From positions 645,501 through 709,500 of the forward strand of contig HE613569.1 in the NCBI GenBank assembly GCA_000283635.1: 64,000 nt of DNA. Reading direction: 5' to 3'. Source of the stretch: Streptococcus macedonicus ACA-DC 198. GTDB lineage: Bacteria > Bacillota > Bacilli > Lactobacillales > Streptococcaceae. The notes under the pieces are model-generated. The model ran no database searches. It was not told where the DNA came from and saw only the letters and a list, made by a program, of their open reading frames with translations. Position numbers and translations under genes: made by a program. Positions 34,183-58,678 of this stretch are shown here, piece after piece; the first letter of the stretch is position 1, and each line of letters starts with the position of its first letter.

Positions 34183-34652
34183 TCTGAGAACAAGTGTTGC
34201 CGTAGCTGGAACATTTAGTTTGGTACGTTTTCGCTCAGCCGCAGGTGGTGCGCGTGAATTATTGGCACTCTTTTTAACAATGACTATCGTATTAAGTACA
34301 GGAATGGGGTACTTAACTTTAGCTATTTTGTCAACAATTGCTATCTTGGTGATTTGGCTTGGAAAAAACGACCTTCTTTAGTTCGGGACAAACGGTGAGA
34401 CATTTGGTGATTGATTTGCCAAAAGACCGAAAAGATGAAAAGTTAATCCGCCACATCTTACACCAATTTTGTCGAGATATTGAATTGGTATCATTGAAGA
34501 GTGGTCATAGCGGTGAACATTTGACGTTAACCTATCAAATCGACCTAAATTCGGATGACGATGACGTTTTATTAACCGATGAATTGGTCAAACACATTGC
34601 TGATATTGACATATCAATGACCAAATTAGCTAAGAAAAAGAAAAACTTGTAA
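34146..34652 (+). pseudogene. Remnant of a DUF4956 membrane protein
   Basis: Starts inside the protein with LVNGSLRTSVAVAGTFSLVRFRSA and ELLALFLTMTIVLSTGMGYL, the conserved membrane core of DUF4956 proteins. The N-terminal helices are gone. A stop at 34379-34381 and a frame change near 34360 separate it from the soluble C-terminal part (RHLVIDLPKDRKDEKLIRHIL). DUF4956 genes normally follow VTC-domain genes, so one deletion seems to have removed the end of the VTC gene and the start of this one. Confidence 0.75.
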
Positions 34653-34669
34653 TACAAGTTAACCAGAAC

Positions 34670-35889
34670 GGCACTGCACCCATAAAGTGAGACAATAGAA
34701 AAACACTCCTAGAATTCTGGTAAACTAGAACTCAGGAGTGTTTTATTATGGTGAAAAAAGCTTATTCTTTAGAAACCAAACTTGCCTCTATCGAGATGAA
34801 GAAAGCAGGCAAGTCCACAAAGGTTATCATGGAAACCTTAGGAGTAAAAAATAAAAGTCAAGTTTATACTTGGTGGAAATGGTACCAAAATGATGAACTC
34901 TATCGCTTTTACCAGCCGGTTGGGAAACAGTATAGCTACGGAAAAGAGAGGAAGGAATTATCTGAACTGGGTCAATTGAAATTACAGGTGAAACTTCTAA
35001 AAAAGTATCGCAGCTTGACGAGAAACCAGACAAAGTAGCCATCATCAAGCTGGTTAAAGTCTATAAACAAGATTATCCCATTCAACAGATTTTTCAGTGC
35101 TTCAATGCCCCTAAATCTACCTATTACCGTTGGTTAAAAAGTCTAGACAATGGAGAAAGTAAATTTGACAAGGTTACAATAGGATAGAAGAGCTCTGTCT
35201 GAAATCTCAATTTATCTATGGCTATCGTACGATTACTCGCTTGTTGTTCAAAGAATACGGACTGGTTGTCAATGCCAAGAAAGTGTATCGAATCATGAAA
35301 GAGAATGAATGGTTGTGTCGTACTAAGCCTAAGAAATTCCCAAATCTTGGCAAACCTTACTATGTTATCGATAACAAGATGGACAGGGACTTCCAATCAA
35401 GCAAACCGCTTCATAAGCTGGTAACGGATATTACTTACTTATACTTTGGAAATTGTAAGCTCTACCTTTCCTCTATCATGAATTTGTTCAATCGTGAAAT
35501 TATCGCTTATTCTATTTCTGATGTGCAAAATACAGATTTTGTATTAGATACACTGAATCAACTAGAACTCCCCAGAGAAGCTATTCTTCATAGCGACCAA
35601 GGTTCTGTCTACACTTCAAAGGCCTCACCCGCTCCATGTCCCGTAAAGGAAGACCTGCAGATAATGCCTGCATTGAATGGTTTCACTCCGTTCTAAAGTC
35701 TGAAACCTTTTATATCCATAACTGGAGAAACCTCAATAGAGATAGTATAACAGATATTGTCAAAAACTATATCACATTTTATAATGAAACTAGAATTCAA
35801 CGGAACTTAAAAGATATGTCTCCTGTTGAATACAGGAAACATGTCTTACAATAGTGTTTTTCTTTTGTCCTACTAACGGGGGCAGTGCC
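34670..35889 (+). mobile_element. Decayed IS3-family element inside a terminator
   Basis: Imperfect inverted ends start GGCACTGCACCCATAAAG (34670) and, from the right, GGCACTGCCCCCGTTAGT (ending 35889); both sides later carry GAAAAACACT. AAC lies on both flanks as a 3-bp target duplication. Removing the element and one AAC gives AACCAGAAC-TTCG-GTTCTGGTT-TTTT, a perfect terminator with a UUCG tetraloop. The element thus landed at the apex of a terminator hairpin. Confidence 0.85.
34748..35854 (+). pseudogene. Frameshifted IS3-family transposase
   Basis: OrfA (34748-35038) begins MVKKAYSLETKLASIEMKKAGKS with a helix-turn-helix. OrfB pieces follow in several frames: STYYRWLKSL near 35115, then LVTDITYLYFGNCKLYLS (first catalytic Asp), ILHSDQGSVYTS (second Asp), and ADNACIEWFHSVLKSE (catalytic Glu). 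Frameshifts near 35165-35190 and 35620-35640 separate the parts, so no active transposase can be made. Confidence 0.85.
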
Positions 35890-35984
35890 AACTTCGGTTC
35901 TGGTTTTTTGATGAACAATTAAACAAGCTTGTAAGTTCTTGCAGATTGAATTATCAGTGTGACAATAGACGATTTTTGAGTGCG

Positions 35985-36013
35985 TTGTCAGCTTCTGAAA
36001 ACTTTGTTATAAT
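35985..36013 (+). promoter_or_regulatory. Promoter of the GH73 gene
   Basis: TTGTCA (35985-35990), 17 bases, TATAAT (36008-36013), 35 bases before the GTG start. Confidence 0.75.
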
Positions 36014-36047
36014 GAATTAAGATAGCACTTACAATTAAGGAGACACC

Positions 36048-36764
36048 GTGAAAGAAAAGCGTATTACAAAGTTCTTTTTAACCTGCGCAACTGTAGTTAC
36101 TTGTATTACCTTGGGTGTTAACCTTTGTTTTCAACATTCTACAAAAGCGGTTGTCGCAGAATCTTCGGAAACATCAGATATAGCAACAGTTGATTTTATT
36201 GCAAGCATTGGCGAAACAGCACGACAAATTGGGCAAGATCGTAATCTCTACGCTTCTGTGATGATTGCACAATCTGTCTTAGAATCAAGTAGTGGGCAGT
36301 CTGCGCTCAGCCAGTCTCCTTATTATAATTTCTTTGGTATCAAGGGAAGTTACAATGGCAATTCTGTGACCATGCTAACTTGGGAAGATGACGGAAATGG
36401 CAATACTTACGAAGTTGACCAAGCATTCAGGTCATATGATAGTTTAAGCGATTCGTTGAATGATTACGCTAATTTGCTTAGCTGGGATTTGTATTCTGGA
36501 ACGTGGAAATCTAACACTACATCTTATCAAGATGCCACGGCAGCCTTGACTGGTTTGTATGCCACAGACACATCTTACGCTGATAAATTAAATGCTTTAA
36601 TTGAGCAATATGGTTTGACAGCCTACGATGAACCAGCAAGCACAGAGGAAGAAACAAGTAGCGAGGACAATTCAGACCATGTCTGGAATGAATACCGTGG
36701 TTCTTACACAACAGCAGCCATCCTAGCAGAAGACGAAGCATGGTTTAGCTTCATTGGTCAATAA
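36048..36764 (+). CDS. Secreted glucosaminidase (GH73) hydrolase
   Basis: 238-aa exported cell-wall hydrolase. A signal peptide or anchor spans residues ~8-28 (FFLTCATVVTCITLGVNL). The glucosaminidase domain follows: SIGETARQIGQDRNLYASVMIAQSVLESSSGQSALS near residues 50-85 (catalytic Glu in ESSSG), YYNFFGIKGSYNGNSV, and the YADKLNALIEQYGL end near 185. A short acidic tail (residues ~195-238) follows. Start is GTG at 36048, supported by AAGGAGA at normal spacing. A terminator directly follows. Confidence 0.88.
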   Translation: MKEKRITKFFLTCATVVTCITLGVNLCFQHSTKAVVAESSETSDIATVDFIASIGETARQIGQDRNLYASVMIAQSVLESSSGQSALSQSPYYNFFGIKGSYNGNSVTMLTWEDDGNGNTYEVDQAFRSYDSLSDSLNDYANLLSWDLYSGTWKSNTTSYQDATAALTGLYATDTSYADKLNALIEQYGLTAYDEPASTEEETSSEDNSDHVWNEYRGSYTTAAILAEDEAWFSFIGQ

Positions 36765-36769
36765 AATAG

Positions 36770-36796
36770 AAAAGAGGAATTTTCTCCTCTTTTTTT
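36770..36796 (+). terminator. GH73 gene terminator
   Basis: AAAAGAGGA - ATTTTC - TCCTCTTTTTTT hairpin. Confidence 0.85.
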
Positions 36797-36826
36797 ACAT
36801 TATTTTGAAAATAAAAAAAGAGCACA

Positions 36827-37954
<1,128 letters not shown>

Positions 37955-37959
37955 GCGGC

Positions 37960-37997
37960 AAAATAAAAAAAGCCATTTCGATTGCTCGAAAATGACT
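37960..37997 (-). terminator. rpmE2 terminator
   Basis: On the minus strand GTCATTTTCGA - GCAA - TCGAAATGGC (with G-U and one bulge) followed by TTTTTTTATTTT. The IS30 right end lies 5 bases beyond the U-tract. Confidence 0.8.
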
Positions 37998-38017
37998 TTC
38001 CTGTAAAATGCGGTTTC

Positions 38018-38260
38018 TTATTTGAGACCGTATTTTTTGTTGAAGCGATCCACACGACCGTCTACTTGTGTGAATTTTTGGCGTCCAGTGTAGAATGGGT
38101 GAGAATCTGATGAGATTTCCACACGTACAAGTGGATAAGTAGCGCCTTCAAATTCCACAGTTTCGTTAGAAGATTTTGTAGAACCGCTAAGGAATTTGTA
38201 ACCAGTAGTTGTGTCCATGAACACTACTGGACGGTATTCTGGATGGATGTTTTGTTTCAT
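38018..38260 (-). CDS. rpmE2: Ribosomal protein L31 type B
   Basis: 80-aa large-subunit protein. [24 protein letters not shown] and the end [18 protein letters not shown] are those of L31. It lacks the CxxC zinc motifs of the C+ form, so it is the zinc-independent type B, in many bacteria made under zinc limitation. No AdcR box was noticed upstream. AGAAAGGAAA precedes the ATG. Confidence 0.96.
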
Positions 38261-38419
38261 TGTTAAAAGATTTCCTTTCTGCCATGGTACTTTTTTGACG
38301 CACCATAGTTATTTTAACTTCTATAGTTTATCAAATAATGCGATATTTGACAAGACTTTTAAGCAAATTAATTGAATTAAAATCAAGTTGTCATTAAGTC
38401 AAGCCTATCAAGGGATAGC

Positions 38420-39364
38420 TTAGTCTTTTGGTGTTAGTAAGTCTTTGATTTCTTGGTAAATTTTGTCGTTTTCTTCAAGGCTATAAGAATTCGCTCCGCT
38501 GGCTAATGGGTGTCCGCCACCGCCGTGGCGTTTAGCGATTTCATTGATAACCTGTGATTTACTACGGAGACGCACACGGTAATGTTTATCATCTTGTTCG
38601 ACAAAAATTGCCCATGATTGGATACAATCGATTTTTCCAGGCGTTCCAACGATGGCAGATATTTCAGCATCAGTTACGTTGAATTTTTTCATGGTATCCT
38701 GTGTCAATACCACACGAGCAGCGCCATTTTCATCAACTTCAAGATTGTCAAAAACGTAGCCTTGAAGTTTAGCAATTTTAAATGAAAACGAGTCCATTTG
38801 ACGAGCTAGTGTTGAAAAATCAAAATCATATTCGCGTAGCTTGCTCGCAATTGAGAGCGTTTTGCTTGTTGTTGCAGGATAAAGGAAACGTCCAGTATCA
38901 CCGACGATACCACAATAAAGCAGGCGAGCTGCCTCATTTGACAAAGCTAGATTAGTTGAAAGGGCAAAATCGGTGATGATTTCGCTAGCGCTAGAAGCAG
39001 TTGTATCAACATAAAGCAAATCACCGTAAGCATCGTCATTAGGGTGATGGTCGATTTTAATCAGAAAGTCACCTTTCGTATAGCGGTCATCGTCAACACG
39101 TGGCGTGTTTGCAGTATCGGTAACAATAACTAAAGAGCCTTGGTAATCATCATCAGAGACAGTATCCATTTTTGTCAACCAAGTAAGAGTTGGCTCGTCT
39201 TTCCCAGTCGCCAAGACTTTTTTTTCTGGAAAATTATGTCTGATAATATCACGAAGCCCGACTTGACTACCGAGAGCGTCAGGGTCGGGACGTTGATGAC
39301 GGTGGATAATAATGGTATCGTAAGCTTTTATTTTTTCTAAAATTTCTTCAAAAGTGTTGTTCAT
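38420..39364 (-). CDS. nrnA: DHH-DHHA1 phosphoesterase NrnA/Pde2
   Basis: 314-aa phosphodiesterase of the NrnA family. Manganese-binding motifs are visible: HRHQRPDPDALGSQ near residues 21-34, IVTDTAN near 80, the signature DHHPND near 105-110 and CGIVGDTGRF near 150. The DHHA1 part has RHGGGGHPLASGA near residue 282. Members degrade nano-RNA, pAp and, as Pde2 in streptococci, pApA from c-di-AMP turnover. Its start overlaps the stop of a small upstream ORF (ATGA). Downstream is rpmE2 on the same strand. Confidence 0.92.
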   Translation of the reverse strand: MNNTFEEILEKIKAYDTIIIHRHQRPDPDALGSQVGLRDIIRHNFPEKKVLATGKDEPTLTWLTKMDTVSDDDYQGSLVIVTDTANTPRVDDDRYTKGDFLIKIDHHPNDDAYGDLLYVDTTASSASEIITDFALSTNLALSNEAARLLYCGIVGDTGRFLYPATTSKTLSIASKLREYDFDFSTLARQMDSFSFKIAKLQGYVFDNLEVDENGAARVVLTQDTMKKFNVTDAEISAIVGTPGKIDCIQSWAIFVEQDDKHYRVRLRSKSQVINEIAKRHGGGGHPLASGANSYSLEENDKIYQEIKDLLTPKD

Positions 39365-39489
39365 CGTTTATTCTCCAATATCATATCAATATGCGGAATA
39401 CCGTTCTCTAGGTATTCATCAGAAATCGTCTTGAATGCAAAAGAAGTGTAAGATGTTTGTAAGTAAGCATGAATTCCAGTATCTTCCAT
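39361..39489 (-). CDS. Small orphan ORF upstream of nrnA (possible remnant)
   Basis: A 42-aa reading frame (MEDTGIHAYLQTSYTSFAFK...) ends in the ATGA overlap with nrnA. It has no good ribosome site and no family I recognise. Further upstream another frame from 39532 starts MVSDIKVLIHF and would join it by one frameshift at a T-run near 39495. So this may be a small gene broken by a homopolymer shift. Coding status is uncertain. Confidence 0.35.
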   Translation of the reverse strand: MEDTGIHAYLQTSYTSFAFKTISDEYLENGIPHIDMILENKR

Positions 39490-39727
39490 AAAAACAAAGA
39501 AAATGAATTAAAACTTTTATATCGCTTACCATGACATTTTTCTGATTTTCATTATACCACAGAAAAAAGAGAATTTATTTTATAATGTTTATTTGATAGA
39601 TACTTTTATTAATTTCTATACGACAACGCTCAAAAATGCCTCTAAATCAGTTTTTTAGTAGGTGTTGCAAATAAGCAAAATCAAAAGAAATATCAGAAAA
39701 GAAAGCGCGCACAAAAACGTGTAAGTA

Positions 39728-39756
39728 TTGAAATAAAAATAGGAATATGCTATAAT
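39728..39756 (+). promoter_or_regulatory. ptsHI promoter
   Basis: TTGAAA (39728-39733), 17 bases, TATAAT (39751-39756). The gap 39533-39727 otherwise holds only AT-rich DNA and a minus-strand extended -10 (TGGTATAAT near 39552) that could serve the nrnA unit. Confidence 0.75.
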
Positions 39757-39820
39757 CATGTCTTGTAAGGGTTATCATATGATAATTCGAAAAAATACAA
39801 ATAAAAAGGAGAACCATAAC

Positions 39821-40084
39821 ATGGCTTCAAAAGATTTTCACATTATTGCAGAAACAGGCATTCACGCACGTCCAGCTACTTTGCTTGTTCAAACAGCTAG
39901 CAAATTTGCTTCAGACATCACTCTTGAGTACAAAGGTAAAGCTGTAAATCTTAAATCTATCATGGGTGTTATGAGCCTTGGTGTTGGTCAAGGTGCTGAC
40001 GTTACTATCTCTGCTGAAGGTGCAGACGCAGACGACGCACTTGCAGCAATCGAAGAAACAATGACTAAAGAAGGATTGGCTTAA
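39821..40084 (+). CDS. ptsH: Phosphocarrier protein HPr
   Basis: 87-aa PTS carrier. The catalytic His15 is in GIHARPAT and the regulatory Ser46 in [11 protein letters not shown]. Phospho-Ser46 HPr is the CcpA co-repressor in Gram-positives. The start at 39821 is set by AAAAGGAGAACC; longer in-frame starts upstream lie before that site. It is four bases from ptsI and co-transcribed. Confidence 0.98.
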
Positions 40085-40088
40085 TAAA

Positions 40089-41822
40089 ATGACAGAAATG
40101 CTTAAAGGAATTGCCGCATCTGATGGTGTTGCTGTTGCTAAAGCGTATCTACTCGTTCAACCGGATTTGTCATTTGAAACTGTTACAGTTGAAGATACAA
40201 GTGCAGAAGAAGCTCGCCTAGATGCCGCATTAAAAGCATCACAAGACGAGCTTTCTGTTATTCGTGAGAAAGCAGTAGAAACACTAGGTGAAGAAGCAGC
40301 TGCCGTGTTTGATGCACACTTGATGGTTCTTTCTGACCCAGAAATGATCAGCCAAATCAAAGAAACTATCCGTGCAAAACAAACGAATGCAGAAGCAGGT
40401 CTTAAAGAAGTGACTGATATGTTTATCACTATCTTTGAAGGAATGGAAGATAACCCATACATGCAAGAACGTGCAGCGGATATCCGTGACGTTTCAAAAC
40501 GTGTATTGGCACACCTTATCGGTGTTAAACTTCCAAATCCTGCAACTATTGATGAAGAATCAATTGTTATTGCACACGACTTGACACCATCTGATACTGC
40601 TCAATTAAACAAACAATTTGTAAAAGCCTTTGTTACTGACATTGGTGGACGTACAAGTCACTCAGCTATCATGGCACGTACTCTTGAAATCCCGGCTGTT
40701 CTTGGAACAAACAATATCACAAGTCGTGTTAAAGATGGTGACATCGTAGCAGTAAATGGTATCACAGGTGACGTGATTATCAACCCAACAGAAGAAGAAA
40801 TTGCTGAATTTAAAGCAGCTGGTGAAGCATACGCTAAACAAAAAGCTGAATGGGCTCTTCTTAAAGACGCTGAAACAGTAACAGCTGATGGTAAACACTT
40901 CGAATTGGCAGCTAACATCGGAACACCTAAAGACGTTGAAGGTGTTAATGCTAATGGTGCAGAAGCAGTTGGTCTTTATCGTACTGAATTCTTGTATATG
41001 GATTCACAAGATTTCCCAACTGAAGATGAACAATATGAAGCATACAAGGCTGTTCTTGAAGGCATGAGTGGTAAACCAGTTGTGGTTCGTACTATGGATA
41101 TCGGTGGGGATAAAGACCTTCCATACTTTGACCTTCCAAAAGAAATGAACCCATTCCTTGGATTCCGTGCACTTCGTATTTCTATCTCAGAAACAGGAAA
41201 TGCAATGTTCCGCACACAAATTCGTGCACTTCTTCGTGCATCTGTTCACGGACAACTTCGTATTATGTTCCCAATGGTTGCACTTCTTAAAGAATTCCGT
41301 GCTGCTAAAGCAATCTTTGATGAAGAAAAAGCTAACCTTAAAGCTGAAGGTGTTGCAGTGGCAGATGATATCCAAGTAGGTATCATGATTGAAATCCCAG
41401 CAGCAGCTATGCTTGCTGACCAATTTGCAAAAGAAGTTGACTTCTTCTCAATTGGTACAAACGACCTTATTCAATACACTATGGCCGCTGACCGTATGAA
41501 CGAACAAGTTTCATACCTTTACCAACCATATAACCCATCTATCCTTCGTTTGATTAATAATGTTATCAAAGCAGCACACGCTGAAGGTAAATGGGCTGGT
41601 ATGTGTGGTGAAATGGCTGGTGACCAGAAAGCTGTTCCGCTTCTTGTAGGAATGGGACTTGATGAGTTCTCTATGTCAGCTACATCAATTCTTCGTACAC
41701 GTAGCCTTATGAAGAAACTTGATACATCTAAAATGCAAGAATATGCAAATCGCGCTCTTACAGAATGCTCAACGATGGAAGAAGTTCTTGAGCTTAGCAA
41801 AGAATACGTTGATTTCGATTAA
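40089..41822 (+). CDS. ptsI: PTS enzyme I
   Basis: 577-aa phosphoenolpyruvate:HPr phosphotransferase. The phosphorylated histidine is in [13 protein letters not shown] (about His191). The PEP-binding barrel carries [29 protein letters not shown], the IMFPM motif and [16 protein letters not shown], with the catalytic Cys in MCGEMAGD near residue 503. It initiates sugar uptake through the PTS. It follows ptsH and is terminated by a hairpin at 41841. Confidence 0.98.
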
Positions 41823-41840
41823 TTGTGTTTAATATTATCA

Positions 41841-41874
41841 GAAAGAGTTTGGACTATTTTCTCCGAACTCTTTC
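41841..41874 (+). terminator. ptsHI terminator hairpin
   Basis: GAAAGAGTTTGGA / TCCGAACTCTTTC stem (one mismatch) with only a modest T-rich tail (TTAATTTT). Confidence 0.6.
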
Positions 41875-41936
41875 TTAATTTTACGGATAGATATGTAGTG
41901 GTTTTCCTGTCACTTTAGTTTAGCTAATAGCTGAAA

Positions 41937-42004
41937 AATCAGCTTTTGTCGGGACTACTGATTTTTAAAGGCTTATGAATAGAATATTCACTGGAGAATT
42001 TATG
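41937..42004. repeat. Hairpin element related to 25144-25220
   Basis: AATCAGCTTTTGTCGGGACT then ACTGATT aligns base for base (27 positions) with AATCAAGTTTCTACGAAACT then ACTGATT at 25144. Both are followed by GGCTTATGAATA / GGCTATGAATA and a second hairpin with CACTGG at its tip. The outer AATCA/TGATT stem is kept and the inner arm is partly kept by G-U pairs. It lies in the gene-free 41875-42223 gap before gapN. Confidence 0.6.
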
Positions 42005-42019
42005 TTTAAAACAAAATCC

Positions 42020-42050
42020 TTGACTTGGAGTGTACTCTAAATTGTACAAT
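42020..42050 (+). promoter_or_regulatory. Orphan MerR-type promoter (19-bp spacer)
   Basis: TTGACT (42020-42025), 19 bases, TACAAT (42045-42050). The spacer region holds the dyad TTGGAGT-GT-ACTCTAA (42025-42040). Overlong spacers with such a dyad are the hallmark of MerR-family activated promoters (NmlR/AdhR-like CTTGGAGT...ACTC). No MerR gene or obvious intact target follows; gapN starts 170 bases on, with its own promoter. Confidence 0.65.
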
Positions 42051-43654: not shown

Positions 43655-43667
43655 TTCTTGATGAAGG

Positions 43668-43695
43668 TTAGAACGGTCCTGTTCTGACTTTTTTT
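43668..43695 (+). terminator. gapN terminator (U-tract duplicated by ISL3)
   Basis: GTTAGAAC - GGTCCT - GTTCTGAC followed by TTTTTTT. The last eight bases, CTTTTTTT, recur after the ISL3 element, so the insertion occurred in this U-tract. Confidence 0.85.
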
Positions 43696-45106
43696 GGCTC
43701 TATAATTTCTGTAGTGGGTAAATCCCCCACAGAGATTATGGAGCTTTTTCAGTGTATCAAAAAAGCCCCATAAGACTTATAATGAAAAGCGACTAAACCA
43801 TCATTAGGAACACCTTATGGAACAACTTAAGAATACCACAGAACTCATCGGATTAAAAGATAAAAATATTAAAATCAAGACGGTTTTTAAGGCTGATACC
43901 CACATCACGATTGAGGCTAGCCTAGACTATCAGCCTCCACTCTGCCCTCACTGCAAAAGTCAGATGAGCAAGTATGACTTTCAACGAGCCTCTACCATCC
44001 CAATCCTTGACGTCCAAGGCATACCAACGGCTCTCAAACTCAAGAAGCGACGCTTTCAATGTAAGGGCTGTCGTCGTGTGACGGTTTCTGAGACTAGCTT
44101 AGTCAAGAAACATTGCCAAATCTCAAAGCCTGTCCGCCAGAAAATCACACAATACCATACCGAAAAGTTAACTAATACTGCCATCGCTAAGAGACTCCAC
44201 CTTTCAGTATCTCTTGTCCAACGTCAGCTGGAAGCTTTCACCTTCAAGGAAGACTTTACTCGTCTTCCTGAGGTTCTATCAGTAGATGAATTTTCTCGAA
44301 ACAAGGGATAACTAGCTTTCATTGCTCAAGATTTTGAAACCAGAAAAATTGTCACTCTCCTTGAAAACAACCGACAAACCACCATCAAAAACTACTTTTA
44401 TCGCTATCCTAGAGCTGTTCGTGAGGCGGTTAAAGTCGTTGCTGTGGACATGTCTGGGTCTTATATTCCAATCCTGAAACAGCTATTTCCTAAAGCCAAA
44501 ATCGTGCTCGACCGCTTCCATATTGTCCAACACCTTGGCAGAGCTATGATGAGCACTCGAATTACCATCATGAAGAGCTTTGATAAAAAGTCTCTCCCTT
44601 ATCGAGCTATGAAAAATCACTGGAAAATACTCCAGAAAGACAGTCGCAAACTTTCTGATAAACGCTTTTATTTACGAACCTTTAGCCAAACCTTGACTCC
44701 AAAAGAAATTGTTAAGAAAATTCTAGATTTATCGGACGAATTCCGTTATTACTATGAGCTGTATCAACTCTTATTATTCCATTTTCAAGAGAAGAATACC
44801 GACCATTTTATGGCGCTGATTGACGACAACCTTCCCTTTGTCAATCCTGTATTTACCACTGTCTTTAAGACCTTCAAGAAATACAAATCCTACATTGCAA
44901 ACGCCCTGGAGCTCCCTTATTCTAACGCTAAGCTAGAAGCCACTAACAAACTCATCAAGGACATTAAGCGTCAAGCTTTCGGCTTTCGAAACTTCAAAAA
45001 CTTTAAAACTAAAATTCTCATCGCTTTGAACATCAAAATAGAGAGAACCAATCTGATTCTCTCTAGATGTTAGTGATAAGTCACCCACTACAGTTGACAA
45101 TGAGCC
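43696..45106 (+). mobile_element. ISL3-family element with 8-bp target duplication
   Basis: Left end GGCTCTATAATTTCTGTAGT from 43696, right end (opposite strand) GGCTCATTGTCAACTGTAGT from 45106, sharing GGCTC and CTGTAGTGGGT. Direct repeats CTTTTTTT at 43688-43695 and 45107-45114 are the 8-bp duplication typical of ISL3. Confidence 0.9.
43817..45073 (+). pseudogene. ISL3 transposase with one in-frame stop
   Basis: Zinc-ribbon N-terminus (CPHCKSQM...CKGCRRVTV), helix-turn-helix (NTAIAKRLHLSVSLVQRQLEAF) and DDE core: LSVDEFSRNKG, VAVDMSGSY and LEATNKLIKDIKRQAFGFRNF. A single TAA at 44309-44311, just after the first catalytic aspartate, interrupts an otherwise full-length frame of about 418 codons. 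A single substitution such as AAA to TAA would explain it. Confidence 0.9.
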
Positions 45107-45260
45107 CTTTTTTTAGTTTAAAAATATGGTTACAAATTGTGTTCTTCATGAAAATTTTTATAAATTTTTTCTTTTTTGCAATGGTTTTACACTTTTGATT
45201 ATAAAAGCGTATTTAATTACGATAAAATAAGGGTAACCATACAATAGGAGGTAGAAAACG

Positions 45261-49546: not shown

Positions 49547-49560
49547 TTTGTAGTGAATAG

Positions 49561-49726: not shown

Positions 49727-49761
49727 GTAAAAAACGAAAAACATCGAAGGGAATTAAGTCA

Positions 49762-49887: not shown

Positions 49888-49925
49888 TATCTTAATGCTT
49901 TTGTTAATATTAGAAAGAGGTTACT

Positions 49926-51488
49926 ATGCGTAAAGTTGGATTCCTTGATACCACTCTTCGTGATGGTGAACAAACGCCAGGCGTTAATTTTTCAATCAAA
50001 GAAAAAGTAGCAATTGCCAAACAGCTTGAAAAATGGGGTATTGCTTCAATTGAAGCTGGTTTTCCAGCAGCTAGTCCTGATTCATTTGAAGCGGTTCGTC
50101 AAATTTCAGCAGTAATGACAACAACTGCGGTGTCAGGTTTAGCACGTTCTGTGAAATCAGATATTGATGCTTGTTATGAAGCATTGAAAGATGCTAAATA
50201 CCCACAATGTCACGTGTTCATTGCAACAAGTCCTATTCATCGTGAATATAAATTGAAAAAAACAAAAGAAGAAATTCTTGATATTATCAAAGAACATGTG
50301 ACTTATGCACGCAGTAAATTTGATGTGGTCGAATTTTCTCCAGAAGATGCAACCCGTACAGAACTTGATTATCTTCTCCAAGTTGTTCAGACAGCGGTTG
50401 ATGCTGGCGCAACTTACATCAATATTCCTGATACGGTTGGTTTTACAACGCCAGAGGAATATGGTAACATCTTCAAATATTTGATTGAAAATACAAAATC
50501 AGACCGCGAGATTATCTTCAGTCCACATTGTCATGATGACCTTGGAATGGCGACAGCCAACACTTTGGCAGCTATCAAAAATGGTGCTGGACGCGTTGAA
50601 GGGACAGTCAATGGTATTGGTGAACGTGCTGGAAATGTGGCACTTGAAGAGATTGCAGTAGCTCTTAATATCCGTAAAGATTATTATCAAGCGACATCTG
50701 ATATTGTCCTTAACGAAACGGTCAATACGTCTGAATTGATTTCACGCTTCTCAGGAATTTCAATTCCTAAGAACAAAGCTGTGGTTGGTGGAAATGCCTT
50801 CTCACACGAATCTGGTATTCACCAAGATGGTGTGCTTAAAAATCCACTCACTTATGAAATTATCACGCCAGAGCTTGTCGGTGTCAAACACAACTCGCTT
50901 CCGCTTGGTAAACTTTCAGGTCGTCATGCTTTCATTGAAAAATTGAAAGAACTCGAACTTGCTTTCGAAGAATCAGAAATTGCAACGCTATTTGGTAAAT
51001 TTAAAAAATTGGCTGATAAGAAACATGAAATTACAGACGCTGATATCAGAGCTTTGGTTGCTGGAACAGAAATTGAAAATCCAGAAGGCTTCCACTTTGG
51101 CGATTTGAAATTAACATCAAATGCTGATGATACGGTGACAGCTGAAGTGTTTATGGTAAACGCTGACGGTGAAGAAGTTGAAGTTATTGCAAATGGAAAA
51201 GGTTCTGTTGAAGCTATCTATAACGCTGTCGATAAATTTTTCAATCAAACTGTCCGCCTTCTCAGCTACACAATGGATGCTGTAACAGACGGTATTGATT
51301 CACAAGCGCGTGTGTCAGTTTCAATTGAAAATGGTGATACAGGAACAATTTTCAACGCATCTGGTATTGATTTTGACGTGCTTAAAGCAGGTGCTATTGC
51401 TTATGTCAATGCGAATGCTTTTGTTCAAAAAGAAAATGCTGGTGAAATTGGCAAAGCCGTTTCATTCCGTGATGTGCCAACTAATTAA
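49926..51488 (+). CDS. leuA: 2-isopropylmalate synthase
   Basis: 520-aa enzyme making 2-isopropylmalate from 2-oxoisovalerate and acetyl-CoA, the first committed step of leucine synthesis. N-terminal FLDTTLRDGEQTPGVNF with the metal-binding DT and RDGEQ, the SPHCHDDLGMATAN motif near residue 200 and NGIGERAGN near 235 define the catalytic barrel. The C-terminal ~110 residues form the LeuA dimer (regulatory) domain for leucine feedback. AGAAAGAGG precedes the ATG. First structural gene after the attenuator. Confidence 0.96.
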   Translation: MRKVGFLDTTLRDGEQTPGVNFSIKEKVAIAKQLEKWGIASIEAGFPAASPDSFEAVRQISAVMTTTAVSGLARSVKSDIDACYEALKDAKYPQCHVFIATSPIHREYKLKKTKEEILDIIKEHVTYARSKFDVVEFSPEDATRTELDYLLQVVQTAVDAGATYINIPDTVGFTTPEEYGNIFKYLIENTKSDREIIFSPHCHDDLGMATANTLAAIKNGAGRVEGTVNGIGERAGNVALEEIAVALNIRKDYYQATSDIVLNETVNTSELISRFSGISIPKNKAVVGGNAFSHESGIHQDGVLKNPLTYEIITPELVGVKHNSLPLGKLSGRHAFIEKLKELELAFEESEIATLFGKFKKLADKKHEITDADIRALVAGTEIENPEGFHFGDLKLTSNADDTVTAEVFMVNADGEEVEVIANGKGSVEAIYNAVDKFFNQTVRLLSYTMDAVTDGIDSQARVSVSIENGDTGTIFNASGIDFDVLKAGAIAYVNANAFVQKENAGEIGKAVSFRDVPTN

Positions 51489-51538
51489 CAAGAAAGGAAT
51501 TTATAGAGAAGCGACGATGTTGCTTGCGGTATCTCATT

Positions 51539-52576
51539 ATGACGAAAAAAATTGTTACACTTGCTGGTGATGGTATTGGTCCAGAAATTATGGCAGCGGG
51601 CTTAGAAGTCCTTGAAGCTGTGGCTTCAAAAATTAATTTTGATTATGACATTGGTGCAAAACCTTTTGGTGGCGCAGGAATTGATGCCAGTGGTCATCCA
51701 CTACCAAAAGAAACTTTGGATGCGGCAAAATCAGCCGATGCGATTTTATTAGCTGCCATTGGTGGTCCAAAGTATGATAACACTACTGTTCGTCCAGAAC
51801 AAGGCTTGCTTGCCATTCGTAAGGAATTAAATTTGTTCGCAAATATCAGACCTGTTCGTATCTTTGATGCTTTGAAACACTTATCGCCTTTGAAACCTGA
51901 AGGGATTGAAGGAGTTGACTTTGTTGTTGTCCGTGAGTTAACAGGAGGTATCTATTTTGGTGAACATCAGTTACAAGATGAATCAGCACGTGATATCAAT
52001 GACTATTCAGCGCAGGAAATCCGCCGTATTATTCGCAAGGCATTTGAATTGGCACGACTTCGCGGCAAAAAAGTGACAAGCATTGATAAACAAAATGTCT
52101 TGGCAACTTCAAAATTATGGCGTAAAGTTGCTGAAGAAGTAGCCTTAGATTTTCCAGATGTCACGTTGGAACATCAATTGGTGGATAGCGCAGCCATGAT
52201 TATGATTACAAATCCATCACGCTTTGACGTTGTGGTTACGGAAAATCTTTTTGGTGATATTTTGTCTGATGAATCAAGCGTGCTTCCAGGCACACTTGGT
52301 GTTATGCCATCAGCTAGCCATTCAGAAAATGGACCAAGCCTTTATGAGCCGATTCACGGTTCAGCTCCAGATATTGCTGGACAAGGCATTGCCAATCCTG
52401 TCAGCATGATTTTATCTGTTGCCATGATGTTGCGTGAAAGTTTCGGTGAAGTAGCTGGCGCAGACCTCATTGAAAATGCGGTTGATAAGACATTTAATCA
52501 AGGCATTTTAACACGTGATTTAGGCGGTAAAGCTTCAACAGCTGAAATGACCGCAGCTATTATTGCAAATCTATGA
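51539..52576 (+). CDS. leuB: 3-isopropylmalate dehydrogenase
   Basis: 345-aa NAD-dependent enzyme oxidizing 3-isopropylmalate in leucine synthesis. Starts KKIVTLAGDGIGPEIM; has LLAAIGGPKYDNTTVRPEQGLLAIRKELNLFANIRPVR near residues 70-105, VVRELTGGIYFGEH near 130, and ESVHGSAPDIAG-like IHGSAPDIAGQGIANP near 275. The ribosome site is weak. A short ORF (MLLAVSHYDEK...) from 51516 overlaps the start in another frame after a better AGAAAGGAA, so coupling is possible. Its stop overlaps the DUF1294 start by four bases. Confidence 0.95.
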   Translation: MTKKIVTLAGDGIGPEIMAAGLEVLEAVASKINFDYDIGAKPFGGAGIDASGHPLPKETLDAAKSADAILLAAIGGPKYDNTTVRPEQGLLAIRKELNLFANIRPVRIFDALKHLSPLKPEGIEGVDFVVVRELTGGIYFGEHQLQDESARDINDYSAQEIRRIIRKAFELARLRGKKVTSIDKQNVLATSKLWRKVAEEVALDFPDVTLEHQLVDSAAMIMITNPSRFDVVVTENLFGDILSDESSVLPGTLGVMPSASHSENGPSLYEPIHGSAPDIAGQGIANPVSMILSVAMMLRESFGEVAGADLIENAVDKTFNQGILTRDLGGKASTAEMTAAIIANL

Positions 52577-52851
52577 CTTTAAAAGAATTAGCACTTCTCA
52601 TTTTCGTTTTGTGGAATGTTTTGACCTTTCTGACTTATGGTATGGATAAAAAGAAAGCAGAGCATGGACATTGGCGAATTCCAGAGAAAACATTGCTTTT
52701 AGAAAGTATCTTATTTGGTGGAATCGGTTCTTTTCTTGGTGGAAAAATCTTTCATCATAAAACTTTGAAATGGTACTTTAAAGCTTGTTGGTATTTGGGA
52801 ATGGTGATTGATATTGCAGTTTTATACTGGTATATCGTCATTTGGAAATAG
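52573..52851 (+). CDS. DUF1294 small membrane protein
   Basis: 92-aa protein with two or three hydrophobic helices (residues ~5-25, 45-60, 70-90) and the DUF1294 signature YGMDKKKAEHGHWRIPEKTLL plus GGIGSFLGGKIFHHKTLKWYF. Its ATG overlaps the leuB stop (ATGA), so it is translated with the leu operon and sits between leuB and leuC. Function unknown; nothing in the sequence links it to leucine chemistry. Confidence 0.8.
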   Translation: MTLKELALLIFVLWNVLTFLTYGMDKKKAEHGHWRIPEKTLLLESILFGGIGSFLGGKIFHHKTLKWYFKACWYLGMVIDIAVLYWYIVIWK

Positions 52852-52896
52852 TAGCTAACTAGAAAATGAAATAGTGAGAAGAATTTGGAGGATGAA

Positions 52897-54285
52897 ATGA
52901 GCGGAAAATCGATTTTTGATAAGCTTTGGGAACGCCATGTGATTACTGGTGAAGAAGGCAAACCACAGCTTATGTATGTTGACCAGCATTATATTCATGA
53001 AGTAACAAGTCCGCAGGCATTCCAAGGACTTAGAGATGCAGGTCGTAAAGTACGTCGCCCAGATTTAACATTTGGAACGACTGACCACAATGTTCCAACG
53101 GTAGATATTTTAAATATTCGCGACTTGGTGTCAAAAAATCAAATTGATACCCTTGCTCGAAATGTTAAAGACTTTGGTATTGATGCGGCAACACATGGAA
53201 CAGAACGCCAAGGGATTGTTCATATGGTAGGTCCAGAAACAGGACGTAGTCAACCTGGTAAATTTGTTGTCTGCGGAGACAGCCATACGGCAACTCACGG
53301 TGCTTTTGGGGCAATTGCCTTTGGTATTGGAACATCTGAAGTGGAGCACGTTTTTGCAACACAGTGCATTTGGCAAGTAAAACCGAAGAAAATGAAAGTT
53401 GAATTTGTCGGTAAACCACAAAAAGGTGTTTATTCAAAAGACTTTATCCTTACTTTGATTGCTCAATATGGTGTTGATGCTGGTGTAGGCTATGCAGTTG
53501 AGTATTGTGGTGAAGCCATTGATGCTCTCTCAATGGACGAACGCATGACCATTGCAAACATGTCGATTGAATTTGGAGCAAAAATGGGCTTGATGAATCC
53601 AGACCAAAAGACCTTTGATTACGTTAAAGGTCGTGAAGCGGCGCCTAAAGGTGATAAATTCGAGCAAGCGGTCGAAGATTGGAAAACATTGGTTTCTGAC
53701 CCTGATGCCGAATATGATAAAGTTATTACCATTGATGTTTCAGAATTGGCACCAATGGTGACTTGGGGAACAAACCCTGAAATGGGTGTTGAATTTGGCA
53801 AGCCATTCCCAGAAATCAAAGACATGAATGATGAACGTGCTTATCATTATATGGACATTAAGCCTGGTGATAAAGCTGAAGATATTGATTTGGGTTATGT
53901 TTTCATTGGTTCTTGTACCAATGCGCGTTTATCAGACCTTGAATTAGCAGCTAAGATTGTTAAAGGCAAACATATTTCACCAAATCTGACAGCTATTGTT
54001 GTTCCTGGTTCTCGTCCTGTTAAGAAAGAAGCAGAGCGACTAGGGCTTGATAAAATTTTCACGGATGCTGGTTTTGAATGGCGTGAGCCTGGTTGTTCAA
54101 TGTGTCTTGGAATGAACCCAGACCATGTGCCAGAAGGCGTTCATTGTGCCTCAACAAGTAATCGTAACTTTGAAGGGCGCCAAGGTTTTGGAGCACGTAC
54201 ACACCTTTGTAGTCCAGCTATGGCGGCAGCGGCAGCAATTGCTGGTAAATTCATCGATGTTCGCCAACTGTCAGAAGTTCAGTAA
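52897..54285 (+). CDS. leuC: 3-isopropylmalate dehydratase large subunit
   Basis: 462-aa [4Fe-4S] aconitase-family subunit isomerizing 2- to 3-isopropylmalate with LeuD. Cluster ligands are in [13 protein letters not shown] near residue 347 and [15 protein letters not shown] near 403-417. [28 protein letters not shown] near 125-152 is a family block. The start at 52897 ([14 protein letters not shown]) follows TTGGAGG; an ATG 12 bases earlier overlaps that site. leuD follows after 12 bases. Confidence 0.96.
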
Positions 54286-54297
54286 AGGAGAGAGATA

Positions 54298-54888
54298 ATG
54301 GAAAAATTTACTGTTTACACAGGGAAATCTGTCCCTTTGATGAATGATAATATTGATACTGACCAGCTCATTCCAAAACAGTTCTTGAAGGCTGTTGATA
54401 AAAAAGGTTTTGGTAAAAATTTGCTGTTTGAGTGGCGCTATCTCAATGATAATTACGATGAAAATCCAGATTTTATCTTTAACAAACCTAAATATCGTGA
54501 TGCAACGATTTTGATCTCAGGGGATAACTTTGGTTCAGGGTCATCACGTGAACACGCTGCTTGGGCCTTGGAAGATTATGGTTTTCGTTGTGTGATTGCA
54601 GGCTCATTTTCTGATATTCACTACAATAATGAATTGAAAAATGGGATGCTTCCAATTGTTCAACCTTTGGAAGTCCGTCAGAAGTTAGCTGCACTACCAG
54701 CTGGCGAAGAAATTACGATTGATTTACCAAACCAAGTCATCAAGTCATCTGCGGGAGAATTTCCGTTTGAGATTGATAGCGAGTGGAAGCGTAAACTTGT
54801 TCTTGGACTTGATGACATTGGTATCACGCTTCAATATGAAAATTTGATAGCAGCCTACGAAAAAAATCGTCCAAGTTATTGGCAATAA
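54298..54888 (+). CDS. leuD: 3-isopropylmalate dehydratase small subunit
   Basis: 196-aa partner of LeuC carrying the swivel domain. [17 protein letters not shown] near residues 14-30 and [33 protein letters not shown] near 72-105 (substrate loop) are diagnostic. AAAGGAGAGAGATA precedes the ATG. Last gene of the leu operon; a terminator follows at 54941. Confidence 0.96.
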
Positions 54889-54940
54889 TTTAAAGAGTAG
54901 TAGGCAAAATAACAGTTGTAGTTCATTTAATAAAATATAG

Positions 54941-54974
54941 AAAAAGTCTGAAATATGATTATTTCAGACTTTTT
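54941..54974 (+). terminator. leu operon terminator
   Basis: AAAAAGTCTGAAAT - ATGATT - ATTTCAGACTTTTT, a perfect 14-bp stem. Confidence 0.92.
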
Positions 54975-55024
54975 GTGGTGTTTGTTTATTCTAAGCAAAA
55001 TATGACGGCAGGCTAATTTTTTGA

Positions 55025-55030
55025 TATAAT
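55025..55030 (+). promoter_or_regulatory. Extended -10 seven bases before an ATG
   Basis: TGATATAAT (55022-55030) is an extended -10; only AAACCTT separates it from the ATG at 55038. Transcription would begin at or next to the start codon, implying a leaderless message. Confidence 0.6.
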
Positions 55031-55037
55031 AAACCTT

Positions 55038-55535
55038 ATGGAAAACACAAAGAAAATAGAGAATTATCAAATCATGTTAGCACAGGCGAAAGCGCTATTT
55101 GCTAACGAAAAAAATCTGCTATCAAATCTTTCAAATGCTAGCGCTCTCTTAAAGATGACTTTGCCAAATTCTGTTTTTACAGGTTTTTATTTATTTGATG
55201 GTCAGGAATTGCTTTTGGGTCCTTTTCAAGGCGGGGTATCGTGCGTTCACATTGCACTTGGAAAAGGTGTTTGTGGTGAAGCAGCAGCTAGTCAAGAAAC
55301 GATAATCGTGGCAGATGTGACAAAACATGCTAATTATATTTCTTGTGATTCAGCAGCCATGAGTGAAATCGTTGTTCCTATGGTTAAAAATAACCAATTG
55401 GTGGGTGTTCTGGATTTGGACTCACGTTTAACAGATGATTATGATGCGATTGACCAAGAGTATCTTGAAAAATTTGTTACCGTACTTTTGGAAAAATCAT
55501 ATTGGAATTTGGATATGTTTGGAGTTGAAAAATAA
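55038..55535 (+). CDS. msrC: Free methionine-R-sulfoxide reductase (GAF domain)
   Basis: 165-aa single GAF-domain protein of the fRMsr family, reducing free L-methionine-(R)-sulfoxide. [37 protein letters not shown] (residues ~47-83), [16 protein letters not shown] and GVLDLDS hold the three conserved cysteines (CVHI, GVCG, ISCD). No ribosome site precedes the ATG. It overlaps dnaX by one base (TAATG), a pairing common in streptococci. Confidence 0.9.
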
Positions 55536-57214
55536 TGTATCAAGCACTTTATCGAAAATATCGTAGCCAAACTTTTGATGAAATGGTTGGGCAAACGGTC
55601 ATTTCAACAACTTTAAAACAAGCAGTTTCTTCAGGAAAAATTAGCCATGCTTATCTATTTTCTGGTCCTCGTGGAACAGGGAAAACAAGTGCTGCTAAAA
55701 TTTTTGCTAAGGCGATGAACTGCCCTAATCAAGTCAATGGCGAGCCATGTAATCATTGCGATATTTGTCGTGATATTACAAATGGTAGCCTTGAAGATGT
55801 CATTGAAATCGACGCTGCATCAAATAATGGTGTTGATGAAATTCGTGAAATTCGTGATAAATCAACCTACGCACCAAGTCGTGCAACTTATAAAGTTTAC
55901 ATCATTGATGAAGTGCATATGTTATCGACAGGTGCTTTTAATGCGCTTTTGAAAACGTTGGAAGAACCAACAGAAAATGTTGTTTTTATTTTAGCAACAA
56001 CAGAATTGCATAAAATTCCAGCAACGATTTTATCACGTGTGCAACGATTTGAATTTAAAGCGATTAAATTAGTGGCTATTCGTGAACATTTAGCTAATAT
56101 TCTTGACAAAGAAGAAATTAGCTATGAAGAAGATGCCTTGACCTTGATTGCGCGTTGTGCTGAGGGTGGAATGCGTGATGCGCTTTCGATTCTTGACCAA
56201 GCGCTTAGTTTAACACCCGATAATCATGTGTCGCTTGCTATCGCAGAAGAAATCACAGGTAGCATTTCAATGACAGCCTTAGATGATTTTGTGGCAAATG
56301 TTTTGGCAAATCAAACCAGTCAAGCTTTGGCAAATTTGGAAACTATTTTTGATAGCGGAAAGAGCATGAGTCGCTTTGCGACGGATTTGTTAAATTACTT
56401 ACGTGATTTATTGGTCGTTCAAACTGGTGGTGAAAATACACATACGAGCCAAACATTCCAAGAGAATTTAGCGACTATTGAACAAAATCGTATTTTTACA
56501 ATGATTGATTTGGTGACGAAAGCTTTGCCTGAGATCAAAAATGGTGTTCAACCTAAAATCTATGCTGAAATGTTAACAATTCAATTATCAGAAGCAGGAA
56601 AAGAAATTTCAACAGCACAAGTTCCAGACGGATTGTCAGATGAATTAGCAAAGCTCAAGAGTGAAATCAAAGACTTGAAAGAAGAACTTTCTAAGATTGA
56701 TAGCTCAGCTCTTTCTCAAAAAACGGTAAGTCGCAAAAAATCAGTTACTGGCTTTAAGTTTAAAGTGGACCGCGTGAAGATTTTGACCATCATGGAAGAA
56801 ACGATTGTTGATAGTCAGAAATCAAGGGAATATCTAGAAGCTCTTAAAGGAGCGTGGAATGAGATTTTGGATAGTATTTCTGCTCAAGACCGCGCGCTTT
56901 TGCTAGGTTCGGAGCCGGTTCTTGCCAATAGTGAAAATGCTATTTTAGCTTTTGATGCAGCTTTTAATGCGGAACAAGCCATGAAACGAACTGACCTTAA
57001 CGATATGTTTGGCAACATCATGAGTAAGGCAGCAGGTTTTTCACCAAATATTTTGGCTGTTCCACGTAAAGACTTCAACAGTATCCGAACAGAATTTGCT
57101 AAAAATTTGAAAAAACAACGCAAAGAGCCAGCACAGGAAGAAGTGCAAGAAGAAAATTTTATTCCAGAAGGCTTTGATTTCCTAGCAGATAAAATTAATA
57201 AGATTGAGGATTAA
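55535..57214 (+). CDS. dnaX: DNA polymerase III gamma/tau subunit
   Basis: 559-aa clamp-loader subunit. [20 protein letters not shown] starts it; Walker A FSGPRGTGKTSAAKIFAK near residue 45, a zinc-binding set CPNQVNGEPCNHCDIC (residues ~64-79), Walker B IIDEVHML near 128, the SRC-like ILSRVQRFEF and the sensor 2 GGMRDALSILDQ near 215. A tau-like C-terminal part runs to 559. It is co-transcribed with msrC. Its terminator has been split by the IS3 element that follows. Confidence 0.95.
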   Translation: MYQALYRKYRSQTFDEMVGQTVISTTLKQAVSSGKISHAYLFSGPRGTGKTSAAKIFAKAMNCPNQVNGEPCNHCDICRDITNGSLEDVIEIDAASNNGVDEIREIRDKSTYAPSRATYKVYIIDEVHMLSTGAFNALLKTLEEPTENVVFILATTELHKIPATILSRVQRFEFKAIKLVAIREHLANILDKEEISYEEDALTLIARCAEGGMRDALSILDQALSLTPDNHVSLAIAEEITGSISMTALDDFVANVLANQTSQALANLETIFDSGKSMSRFATDLLNYLRDLLVVQTGGENTHTSQTFQENLATIEQNRIFTMIDLVTKALPEIKNGVQPKIYAEMLTIQLSEAGKEISTAQVPDGLSDELAKLKSEIKDLKEELSKIDSSALSQKTVSRKKSVTGFKFKVDRVKILTIMEETIVDSQKSREYLEALKGAWNEILDSISAQDRALLLGSEPVLANSENAILAFDAAFNAEQAMKRTDLNDMFGNIMSKAAGFSPNILAVPRKDFNSIRTEFAKNLKKQRKEPAQEEVQEENFIPEGFDFLADKINKIED

Positions 57215-57228
57215 AAAAGAACTTCAAA

Positions 57229-58661
57229 TGAACTGCACCCCAAAAGTTAGACAACAAATCTAACTTTTGGGGTGTTTTTCTATGAAATTAAGTTATGAAG
57301 ATAAAATTGAAATCTATCGCTTACGACAATCTGGTTGGACATGGTCTAAAATCAGTCAAACATTTAATATTAGTAAGTATAACCTTCAATACATGGTCCG
57401 TCTTATTGATATACACGGATTGGAAAGCGTTTGTAAAAGGAAAAATAGGTATTATTCTCCTGAACTAAAGCAAGAAATCATAAAAGAAGTTCTGATGAAA
57501 GGTAGGTCTCAGCTAGAGGTTTCTCTAGATTATGGATTACCAAATAAGGGAATGCTTCCTAATTGGATAGCGCAATACAAGAAAAACGGGTATACTATTC
57601 TTGAGAAATCAAGAGGGAGACCTGTAAAAATGGGACGCAAACCAAAGAAAAAACTTGAAGAAATGACTGAATTAGAGCGTCTTCAATATGAAAATGAGTA
57701 CCTTAGAGCGGAGAATGCCGTACTAAAAAAGTTGAGAGAACTCCGATTGAGGGACGAAGCAAGGCTCAAAGAGCAACAGAAATCATTCAAGGACTAATCA
57801 ATGTATTTGATTTAAGAATCCTACTTAATATTTTGAAGTTGTCTCGATCAACCTACTATTATCAGGTTAAACGTCTAACCCAGGTAGATAAAAACAAAGA
57901 ATTAAAAGAAGCTATTCAAAATATTTATTCTGAGAACAAAGGGAGATATGGTTACCGTAGAATTCACCTCGAACTTAAAAATCGAGGCTATAAAGTTAAC
58001 CATAAGAAAGTTCAACGTCTGATGACAGAACTTGGTTTGAAAGCTAGAATCCGTGCGAAACGTCGCTATAACTCTTATAAAGGTGAGGTCGGCAAGAAAG
58101 CTGATAATCTCATTAAGCGTCAATTTAAAGCTGCCCAACCACTTAAGAAGTGTTATACCGATGTAACAGAGTTTTCAATTCCTGCTAGTGATCAAAAATT
58201 GTATCTATCACCAGTTCTTGATGGCTTTAACAGTGAGATTATTGCATACAATTTATCTACCTCGCCAAACTTACAACAACTTAAAACAATGCTTTCCGAG
58301 GCTTTTCCTGAACAAACTTATCAGGACACTATTTTACATAGTGACCAAGGATGGCAATATCAACACACTTACTACCATCATTTTCTTGAGGAGCATGGAA
58401 TGAGACCGTCCATGTCGCGTAAAGGAAATAGCTTAGACAACGGCATGATGGAATCTTTCTTTGGAACATTGAAGACAGAAATGTTTTATGGGTTTGAGAA
58501 GGAATTTACTTCTCTCGAAACATTGAAAACAGCTATTTCAGAATATATCAACTACTACAACACTAAACGAATCAAACTTACATTAAAAGGACTAAGTCCT
58601 GTGCAATACAGAACTCAATCCTTAACTTAAATATTTAGTCTAACATTTGGGGGTCACTTCA
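57229..58661 (+). mobile_element. IS3-family (IS861-like) element inside the dnaX terminator
   Basis: Ends TGAACTGCACCCCAAAAGTT (57229) and, opposite strand, TGAAGTGACCCCCAAATGTT (from 58661) form ~24-bp imperfect inverted repeats. AAA is duplicated on both sides (57226-57228, 58662-58664). Length 1433 bp, close to IS861. Excising it with one AAA rejoins GAACTTC (57219-57225) and GAAGTTC (58666-58672) as GAACTTC-AAAC-GAAGTTC-TTTTTT, the dnaX terminator. The insertion therefore sits in the 4-base loop. Confidence 0.92.
57282..58630 (+). CDS. IS3 transposase OrfA/OrfAB (programmed -1 frameshift)
   Basis: OrfA (57282-57797, 171 aa) has two helix-turn-helix segments ([36 protein letters not shown]) and a leucine zipper-like end. 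A slippery A-AAA-AAG at 57725-57731 lets ribosomes move to the -1 frame, which stays open ([20 protein letters not shown]...) and runs into OrfB, whose part from 57833 to 58630 is [18 protein letters not shown] (Asp), [10 protein letters not shown] (Asp) and [17 protein letters not shown] (Glu). Both reading frames appear intact, so this is the only apparently functional IS in the window. Confidence 0.92.
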
Positions 58662-58678
58662 AAACGAAGTTCTTTTTT

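Follow-up and report, generated by a model that had tools for sequence, protein, structure and literature searches.

Results

IS3-A at the apex of terminator hairpins

A 64,000-nucleotide stretch of Streptococcus macedonicus ACA-DC 198 DNA (GenBank contig HE613569.1, positions 645,501 to 709,500; hereafter the window) contains an insertion sequence (IS) of the IS3 family, IS3-A, that splits the rho-independent terminator of dnaX at its loop. Our reading, to which we assign a probability of about 0.78, is that the IS150-like clade of IS3 elements chooses terminator-shaped DNA as its target and carries built-in terminators that would replace the one it breaks. The evidence comprises the position of the copies at the hairpin apex with a target site duplication (TSD), the complementarity of the flanking arms, empty sites in a relative, and covarying hairpins at the ends of the elements. 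A target preference for terminators by IS3 elements is strongly supported.

IS3-A contains two open reading frames (ORFs), one orfA-like and one orfB-like. In a profile search, the orfB product matched NF033516 with 317 bits (cut-off, 160) and also matched rve, rve_2, and HTH_21; its 52% identity to OrfB of Escherichia coli IS150 over 263 amino acids places IS3-A in the IS150-like clade. The TG..CA ends form an inverted repeat with 16 of 20 terminal bases matching, and a 3-bp TSD flanks all five copies found in the genome (2,142,762 bases in two contigs), which are 100% identical; the transposase profile and the ends with their TSD thus both identify an IS3 family member. Inspection of the flanks showed that the duplication lies at a hairpin apex in 5/5 copies. 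The duplicated triplets differ (CTG; TCG, which is CGA in the IS orientation; CTT; GAC, which is GTC in the IS orientation; and AAA), and four copies reached a strict hairpin score of at least 18, with the fifth (L001) scoring 13. The first-pass annotation had placed IS3-A, with TSD AAA, in the loop of GAACTTC-AAAC-GAAGTTC, and a second IS3 element, IS3-B, at the apex of AACCAGAAC-TTCG-GTTCTGG with TSD AAC; both positions were confirmed (Table 1).

We then searched 197 Streptococcus genomes, found a match in 184, and scored two candidates per genome among the matches listed. The IS3-A clade gave 94 loci. One of them lay at a contig edge, five lacked TG..CA ends, and one was a duplicate; the remaining 87 sites were distinct and usable. 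A perfect 3-bp duplication was present at 61/87 sites. A hairpin scoring at least 18 lay within 6 nt of the duplication at 51/87 sites, whereas 2.5% of 1914 background windows taken from these loci had one. The best hairpin within ±40 nt was at most 3 nt from the TSD center in 57/87 and at most 6 nt in 63/87, against 14 expected. When the two 25-nt flank arms were paired with each other, 61/87 sites reached a pairing energy of −10 or better. This energy was reached by 224/1724 pairs (13%) when arms were swapped among sites and by 371/2436 pairs taken from other positions along the flanks. Because the exchange keeps the A and T tracts yet abolishes the excess of pairing, the two arms of a site are specifically complementary. 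A looser RNAfold criterion (73/87 versus 382/1044 background) was not relied on owing to its high background.

Empty sites in Streptococcus gallolyticus

A comparison with relatives that lack the elements, as the first-pass annotation had proposed, succeeded in part. Streptococcus gallolyticus BI02, found by a DnaX scan, has intact empty terminators at three of the seven sites tried, namely, those of dnaX, gapN, and IS3-B, and its dnaX region is colinear with the joined window flanks at 301/321 bases. The other four sites gave none: at L003, the terminator is occupied by a different insert of approximately 200 bp; the L001 site is divergent; only the left flank of L004 found a match; and L002 had no match. 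In twenty less close and eight chosen genomes, no match covered both a junction and its flanks; a single 34-nt match (G198) touches a junction and looks like a similar hairpin elsewhere.

Two further features of these S. gallolyticus loci were observed. The loop of the dnaX terminator (L301:5675-5711) is inverted relative to the window reconstruction (57211-57228 plus 58662-58680); the hairpins agree at 35/36 bases on the opposite strand, and the same-strand mismatches fall mostly in the loop. This inversion suggests that the dnaX terminator hairpin forms as a DNA structure. The insert in the L003 terminator (L384, 1001-1430) has GGGACAAA-type palindromic ends, which also occur at L075 and L091.

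Relatives beyond the genus and nontargeting IS3 groups

A protein search of 198 genomes of the order identified multicopy relatives in other families. Strong arms were found in G314 (4/9), G245a (2/4), G126, which is of the same genus (10/11), G245b (5/6), G296 (4/8), G257 (5/7), G276 (2/3), G270 (4/4), and G336 (3/4), giving a pooled 39/56, to be read against a permuted arm baseline of 0 to 0.52 in these small groups that results partly from target types common among copies. The IS3-B clade had strong arms at 4/9 sites, and G256c, whose ends resemble those of IS3-B, at 5/8. Excluded from the analysis were two one-sided G328 copies located at contig ends, two G201 copies whose left ends could not be located, L484 and L496, whose ends could likewise not be located, and three partial relatives of IS3-B (L140, L146, and L150).

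By contrast, three multicopy IS3 groups outside the clade, with 28 to 31% identity, showed strong arms at 2/25 sites, equal to background (G282a, 1/9; G256b, 1/9; G255b, 0/7). In a tree of 30 OrfB rows, these groups fall on one side of a branch with a support of 91/92, although the branches are long and the outer limits of the clade unsure. Several copies of G257 (L239, L241, L244, and L245) and G245a (L209 and L211) lie in palindromic repeats, where the hairpin is displaced from the duplication by 7.5 nt or has no U-tract, which indicates that the target range is broader than terminators.

Inward-facing hairpins at the ends of the elements

Hairpins resembling terminators face inward from both ends of the IS3-A clade copies. 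With a strict detector for an inward-facing hairpin plus T-run, the first 100 nt contained one in 72/87 copies and the last 100 nt, read from the opposite end, in 86/87, compared with 0/1392 internal windows; 120-nt windows gave the same outcome (0/1562). A gapped detector, which additionally allows bulges, scored both ends in 152/160 copies of the targeting groups (IS3-A, 86/87; G314, 9/9; G245a, 4/4; G126, 11/11; G245b, 6/6; G296, 6/8; G257, 7/7; G276, 3/3; G270, 4/4; G336, 4/4; G256c, 8/8; IS3-B, 4/9) compared with 0/25 in the three nontargeting groups.

As judged from aligned homologs, the right-end hairpin is kept by compensatory changes. Across 41 distinct sequences, 95% of the cells were paired, a level reached by 0/500 shuffles, and shifting the register lowered pairing to 62% or less. 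Double changes occurred at 12/16 pairs, in 39 cells compared with 5.8 in shuffles, counts that are inflated by the kinship of the sequences; in Streptococcus alone, they occurred at 6/16 pairs (9 cells versus 0.8).

These hairpins might act only as a shield for the transposase gene against transcription from outside and be unrelated to the host. Other IS are well known to be shielded in this way, and the left hairpin directly precedes the transposase ORFs. However, the right-end hairpin faces transcripts that read the element backward and appears to be maintained by compensatory changes, and the nontargeting groups have neither hairpin. Shielding as the whole explanation is a possibility that we consider doubtful, and shielding and the replacement of the host terminator can act together. 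A further suggestion of the first-pass annotation, that termination may be lost at every insertion and neighboring transcripts joined, is not supported, since the elements carry predicted terminators facing inward at their ends.

Features of the target

Among 143 sites, 83 had strong arms. Most of these (61) were bounded by both tracts, with an A-run to the left and a T-run to the right; 12 had the left run only, 8 the right run only, and 2 neither. The targets have no common loop sequence, and column composition shows A and T tracts only. Among the strong sites, orientation on the terminator was unbiased (37 versus 31, with 15 ties). Both tracts were more frequent in strong targets (61/83) than in the intergenic terminators of the window (6/16, p 0.008), so terminators with an A-run and a T-run may be preferred. 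The motif ACGCATA.TATCA is common to six targets (L059, L060, L077, L078, L092, and L093), which may be SPRITE repeats; in the accessible part of PMC3049150, the SPRITE repeats of pneumococcus are described as terminator-like.

The composition of the targets raises the alternative that the cue is an A tract and a T tract with constant spacing, that is, bent or easily melted DNA, with the hairpin merely what usually lies between them. In addition to the enrichment just given, both tracts were present at 71% of the sites where the arms were strong, 61% where they were intermediate, and 50% where they were weak, compared with 3% of background windows. Arm exchange, which preserves the tracts and destroys the complementarity, speaks against the tracts alone, as do the two strong sites without either tract and the groups found in palindromic repeats; we consider this alternative unlikely in its pure form. 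The target is marked by stem strength and by the tracts alike.

A cue from transcription, whereby a paused polymerase, a nascent hairpin, or supercoiling at the terminator attracts the transposase, would fit the presence of at least one tract at 81/83 strong targets, nearly all of them thus terminator-like, but it is rendered improbable by the lack of orientation bias relative to the tracts and by the G245a and G257 targets that lack typical U-tracts.

The first-pass annotation had offered target preference or selection for harmless sites as alternatives. ORFs end toward the element on both sides at 38/87 sites, on one side at 37/87, and on neither at 12/87 by a crude test, and the element lies a median of 27 nt from the stop codon; this would be expected from broad insertion with survival only at gene ends, where terminators abound, and the available portion of a pneumococcal study likewise reports IS over-represented between convergent genes and interprets this as tolerance (PMC3049150). 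Selection as the sole cause is nevertheless the least probable of the explanations and is rejected because the copies lie within a few nucleotides of the hairpin center, although spots within 3 nt of a terminator center make up approximately 1.1% of the intergenic DNA of the window, and because three other IS3 groups of the same order lack the pattern; it may act in addition to target choice, the evidence for which is strong for IS3 and good for ISL3.

ISL3 and IS30 elements

The window also contains ISL3-A, an ISL3 family element whose transposase gene is interrupted, with two fragments matching NF033550 (95.9 and 170.9 bits; cut-off, 180). Because their transposase frames are interrupted, this copy and the IS3-B copy are probably no longer autonomous. 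As the first-pass annotation had stated, ISL3-A duplicated the U-tract of the gapN hairpin, its 8-bp TSD being CTTTTTTT.

An AT-rich target duplication of 8 bp is a trait of the ISL3 family, and among the 19 own-genome copies the TSD was 8 bp in 16, 7 bp in one, and missing in two. Its distance from a terminator hairpin was at most 10 nt in 12/19 of these copies and in 14/32 copies from other streptococci, where six partial loci were left out and 11/43 lacked a clean TSD, compared with 3 to 5% of AT-rich positions in the same flanks and 8% of AT-rich intergenic positions in the window. In the arm test, the own-genome copies did not exceed background (2/19), and their duplications lie mostly beside the hairpin rather than in loops, with L019 and L021 as exceptions. 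Inward-facing hairpins were found at the left end of 17, the right end of 14, and both ends of 12 of the 19. It is thus well supported that ISL3 prefers terminators and adjoins the hairpin rather than occupying its apex.

The IS30 element of the window lies where the first-pass annotation put it, near the terminator of the L31 gene (PF01197), its right end approximately 9 nt from the minus-strand U-tract. Only 1/4 IS30 copies was at a terminator by eye and 0/4 in the arm test. Of the three families that had been proposed to choose terminators, the proposal is supported for IS3 (exact to the apex) and ISL3 (beside the hairpin) and was dropped for IS30.

Table 1 Elements of the window, the host terminators at which they lie, and their own end hairpins. 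Positions are those of the window.
Feature	Position	Strand	Basis or remark
dnaX	55535-57214		NCBIfam match
Left half of split dnaX terminator: A-run, stem GAACTTC, TSD AAA	57213..57228	+	Sequence
IS3-A, 1433 bp, IS3 family, IS150-like clade	57229..58661	+	orfB NF033516 match; five identical genome copies
IS3-A left-end inward-facing terminator-like hairpin, then T-run	57235..57280	+	Precedes transposase ORFs; inverted repeat is one arm
IS3-A orfA-like ORF	57267..57797	+	HTH_Tnp_1
IS3-A orfB-like ORF	57833..58630	+	rve, HTH_21
IS3-A right-end inward-facing terminator-like hairpin with U-run	58585..58623	-	Overlaps orfB end; covariation in homologs
Right half of dnaX terminator: TSD AAA, C, stem GAAGTTC, T-run	58662..58678	+	Sequence; empty intact form in S. 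gallolyticus
Left half of split hairpin AACCAGAAC, including TSD AAC (34667-34669)	34661..34669	+	Sequence
IS3-B, degenerate IS3 family element	34670..35889	+	orfB interrupted; single full copy in genome
IS3-B left-end inward-facing terminator-like hairpin	34702..34745	+	
Right half at IS3-B: TSD AAC, TTCG, GTTCTGG, T-run	35890..35909	+	Empty form in S. gallolyticus
gapN terminator hairpin; U-tract is left TSD CTTTTTTT (43688-43695)	43666..43695	+	Empty form in S. gallolyticus
ISL3-A, ISL3 family	43696..45106	+	Transposase interrupted; inward hairpins left 43696-43750, right 45039-45065 (minus)
ISL3-A right TSD CTTTTTTT	45107..45114	+	Sequence
IS30 family element	36827..37955	.	About 9 nt from L31 terminator U-tract; other copies without pattern

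Discussion

Comparison with known systems

The IS3 family members IS1397, ISKpn1, and ISPsy8 resemble the IS3-A clade in that they target palindromes, those of REP elements, and ISPsy8 sits at the symmetry axis of the REP hairpin with a 3-bp repeat, according to the available part of PMC1525189. As described there, these elements target one repeated sequence family, whereas the IS3-A clade enters many unrelated terminators that have no loop sequence in common; IS3-A is therefore not of the REP-targeting (IS1397) type.

IS1272 and TnSha1 of the IS1182 family target hairpins, several of which are terminators, with little common sequence, and IS1272 removes the stem-loop with no target duplication, as far as the accessible portions of PMC4923244 and PMC5678879 describe. 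The IS3-A clade instead keeps the stem and duplicates 3 bp at 61/87 sites. Stem-loop replacement of the IS1272/IS1182 type does not describe IS3-A, since both arms are kept with the TSD and the dnaX flanks are colinear with the empty site.

E. coli IS150 resembles IS3-A not only in OrfB but also in an inward-facing hairpin at the right end. In 15/19 loci (L519-L537, hand-picked), IS150 is a neighbor of hok genes, and GCCCC / GGGGC hairpins recur; two hand-chosen matches, L534 inside gltL and L536 behind ogrK, are terminator-like hairpins. Group IIC introns also insert next to terminator stem-loops; they are retroelements with another mechanism and land beside the hairpin, whereas the IS3-A clade lands in the loop. 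A literature search found no account of IS3 or ISL3 elements in terminator loops among open-licence papers, which supports the absence of such accounts weakly.

Weighing the evidence

Several observations weigh against terminator choice with built-in replacement. A perfect TSD was missing at 26/87 IS3-A clade sites, and 19/87 had no hairpin scoring at least 12. Arms were weak at 20/143 sites; half of these keep the A- and T-runs, so the tracts may count as much as the hairpin. The gapped detector also scored 66/400 internal windows (approximately 16%) of IS3-A copies. In the IS3-B clade, the right hairpin was found in only 4/9 copies, and the site of IS3-B itself falls below the arm cut-off (−8.3). 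G256a, at 38% identity, has both end hairpins in 5/5 copies and strong arms at only 1/5 sites. The permuted arm baseline reached 0.32 to 0.52 in G314, G296, and G257, and counts from single-genome groups include redundant copies, such as L234 and L235 with common flanks and L508 and L509 at the same site in opposite orientation. Finally, the left-end hairpin of IS3-A was not found in E. coli IS150, and IS150 is not a clean extension of the pattern, with an arm test of 5/12 that does not exceed its 37% background.

Proposed mechanism

We propose that the transposase of the IS150-like IS3 clade picks intrinsic terminators, composed of an A-run, a stem, a short loop, a stem, and a T-run, and would insert the element at the apex with a 3-bp target duplication, requiring no common loop sequence. 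The cue would be folded or bent terminator DNA, such as a cruciform or a single-strand hairpin between the A and T tracts. The host terminator is split and may be functionally replaced by those of the element, as their sequence and covariation suggest; transcripts from either neighbor would stop approximately 50 to 80 nt inside the element. Because copies follow a stop codon by approximately 27 nt and often lie where two genes converge, transcripts would arrive from both sides, and two inward terminators would be needed to spare the host and the element. ISL3 elements likewise favor the AT tract next to the hairpin, though less strictly.

Going further, we tentatively suggest, at somewhat less than even odds, that terminator swapping is a strategy that evolved in two unrelated families, the IS150-like IS3 clade and streptococcal ISL3. 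Their elements would recognize a terminator by its shape, disrupt or adjoin it, and provide both neighbors with termination again through the inward-facing terminators near their two ends, one of which would be encoded within the last part of the transposase gene.

If the proposal is correct, shape-based targeting of terminators would explain how such elements multiply with little harm and cluster at gene ends without selection, and it would provide a sequence-independent target rule for a large group of transposons. It makes testable both the reading of cruciform DNA by a transposase in vivo and the restoration by a mobile element of the very signal that it has broken. For annotation, a gene beside such an element would probably have lost its own terminator but not termination.

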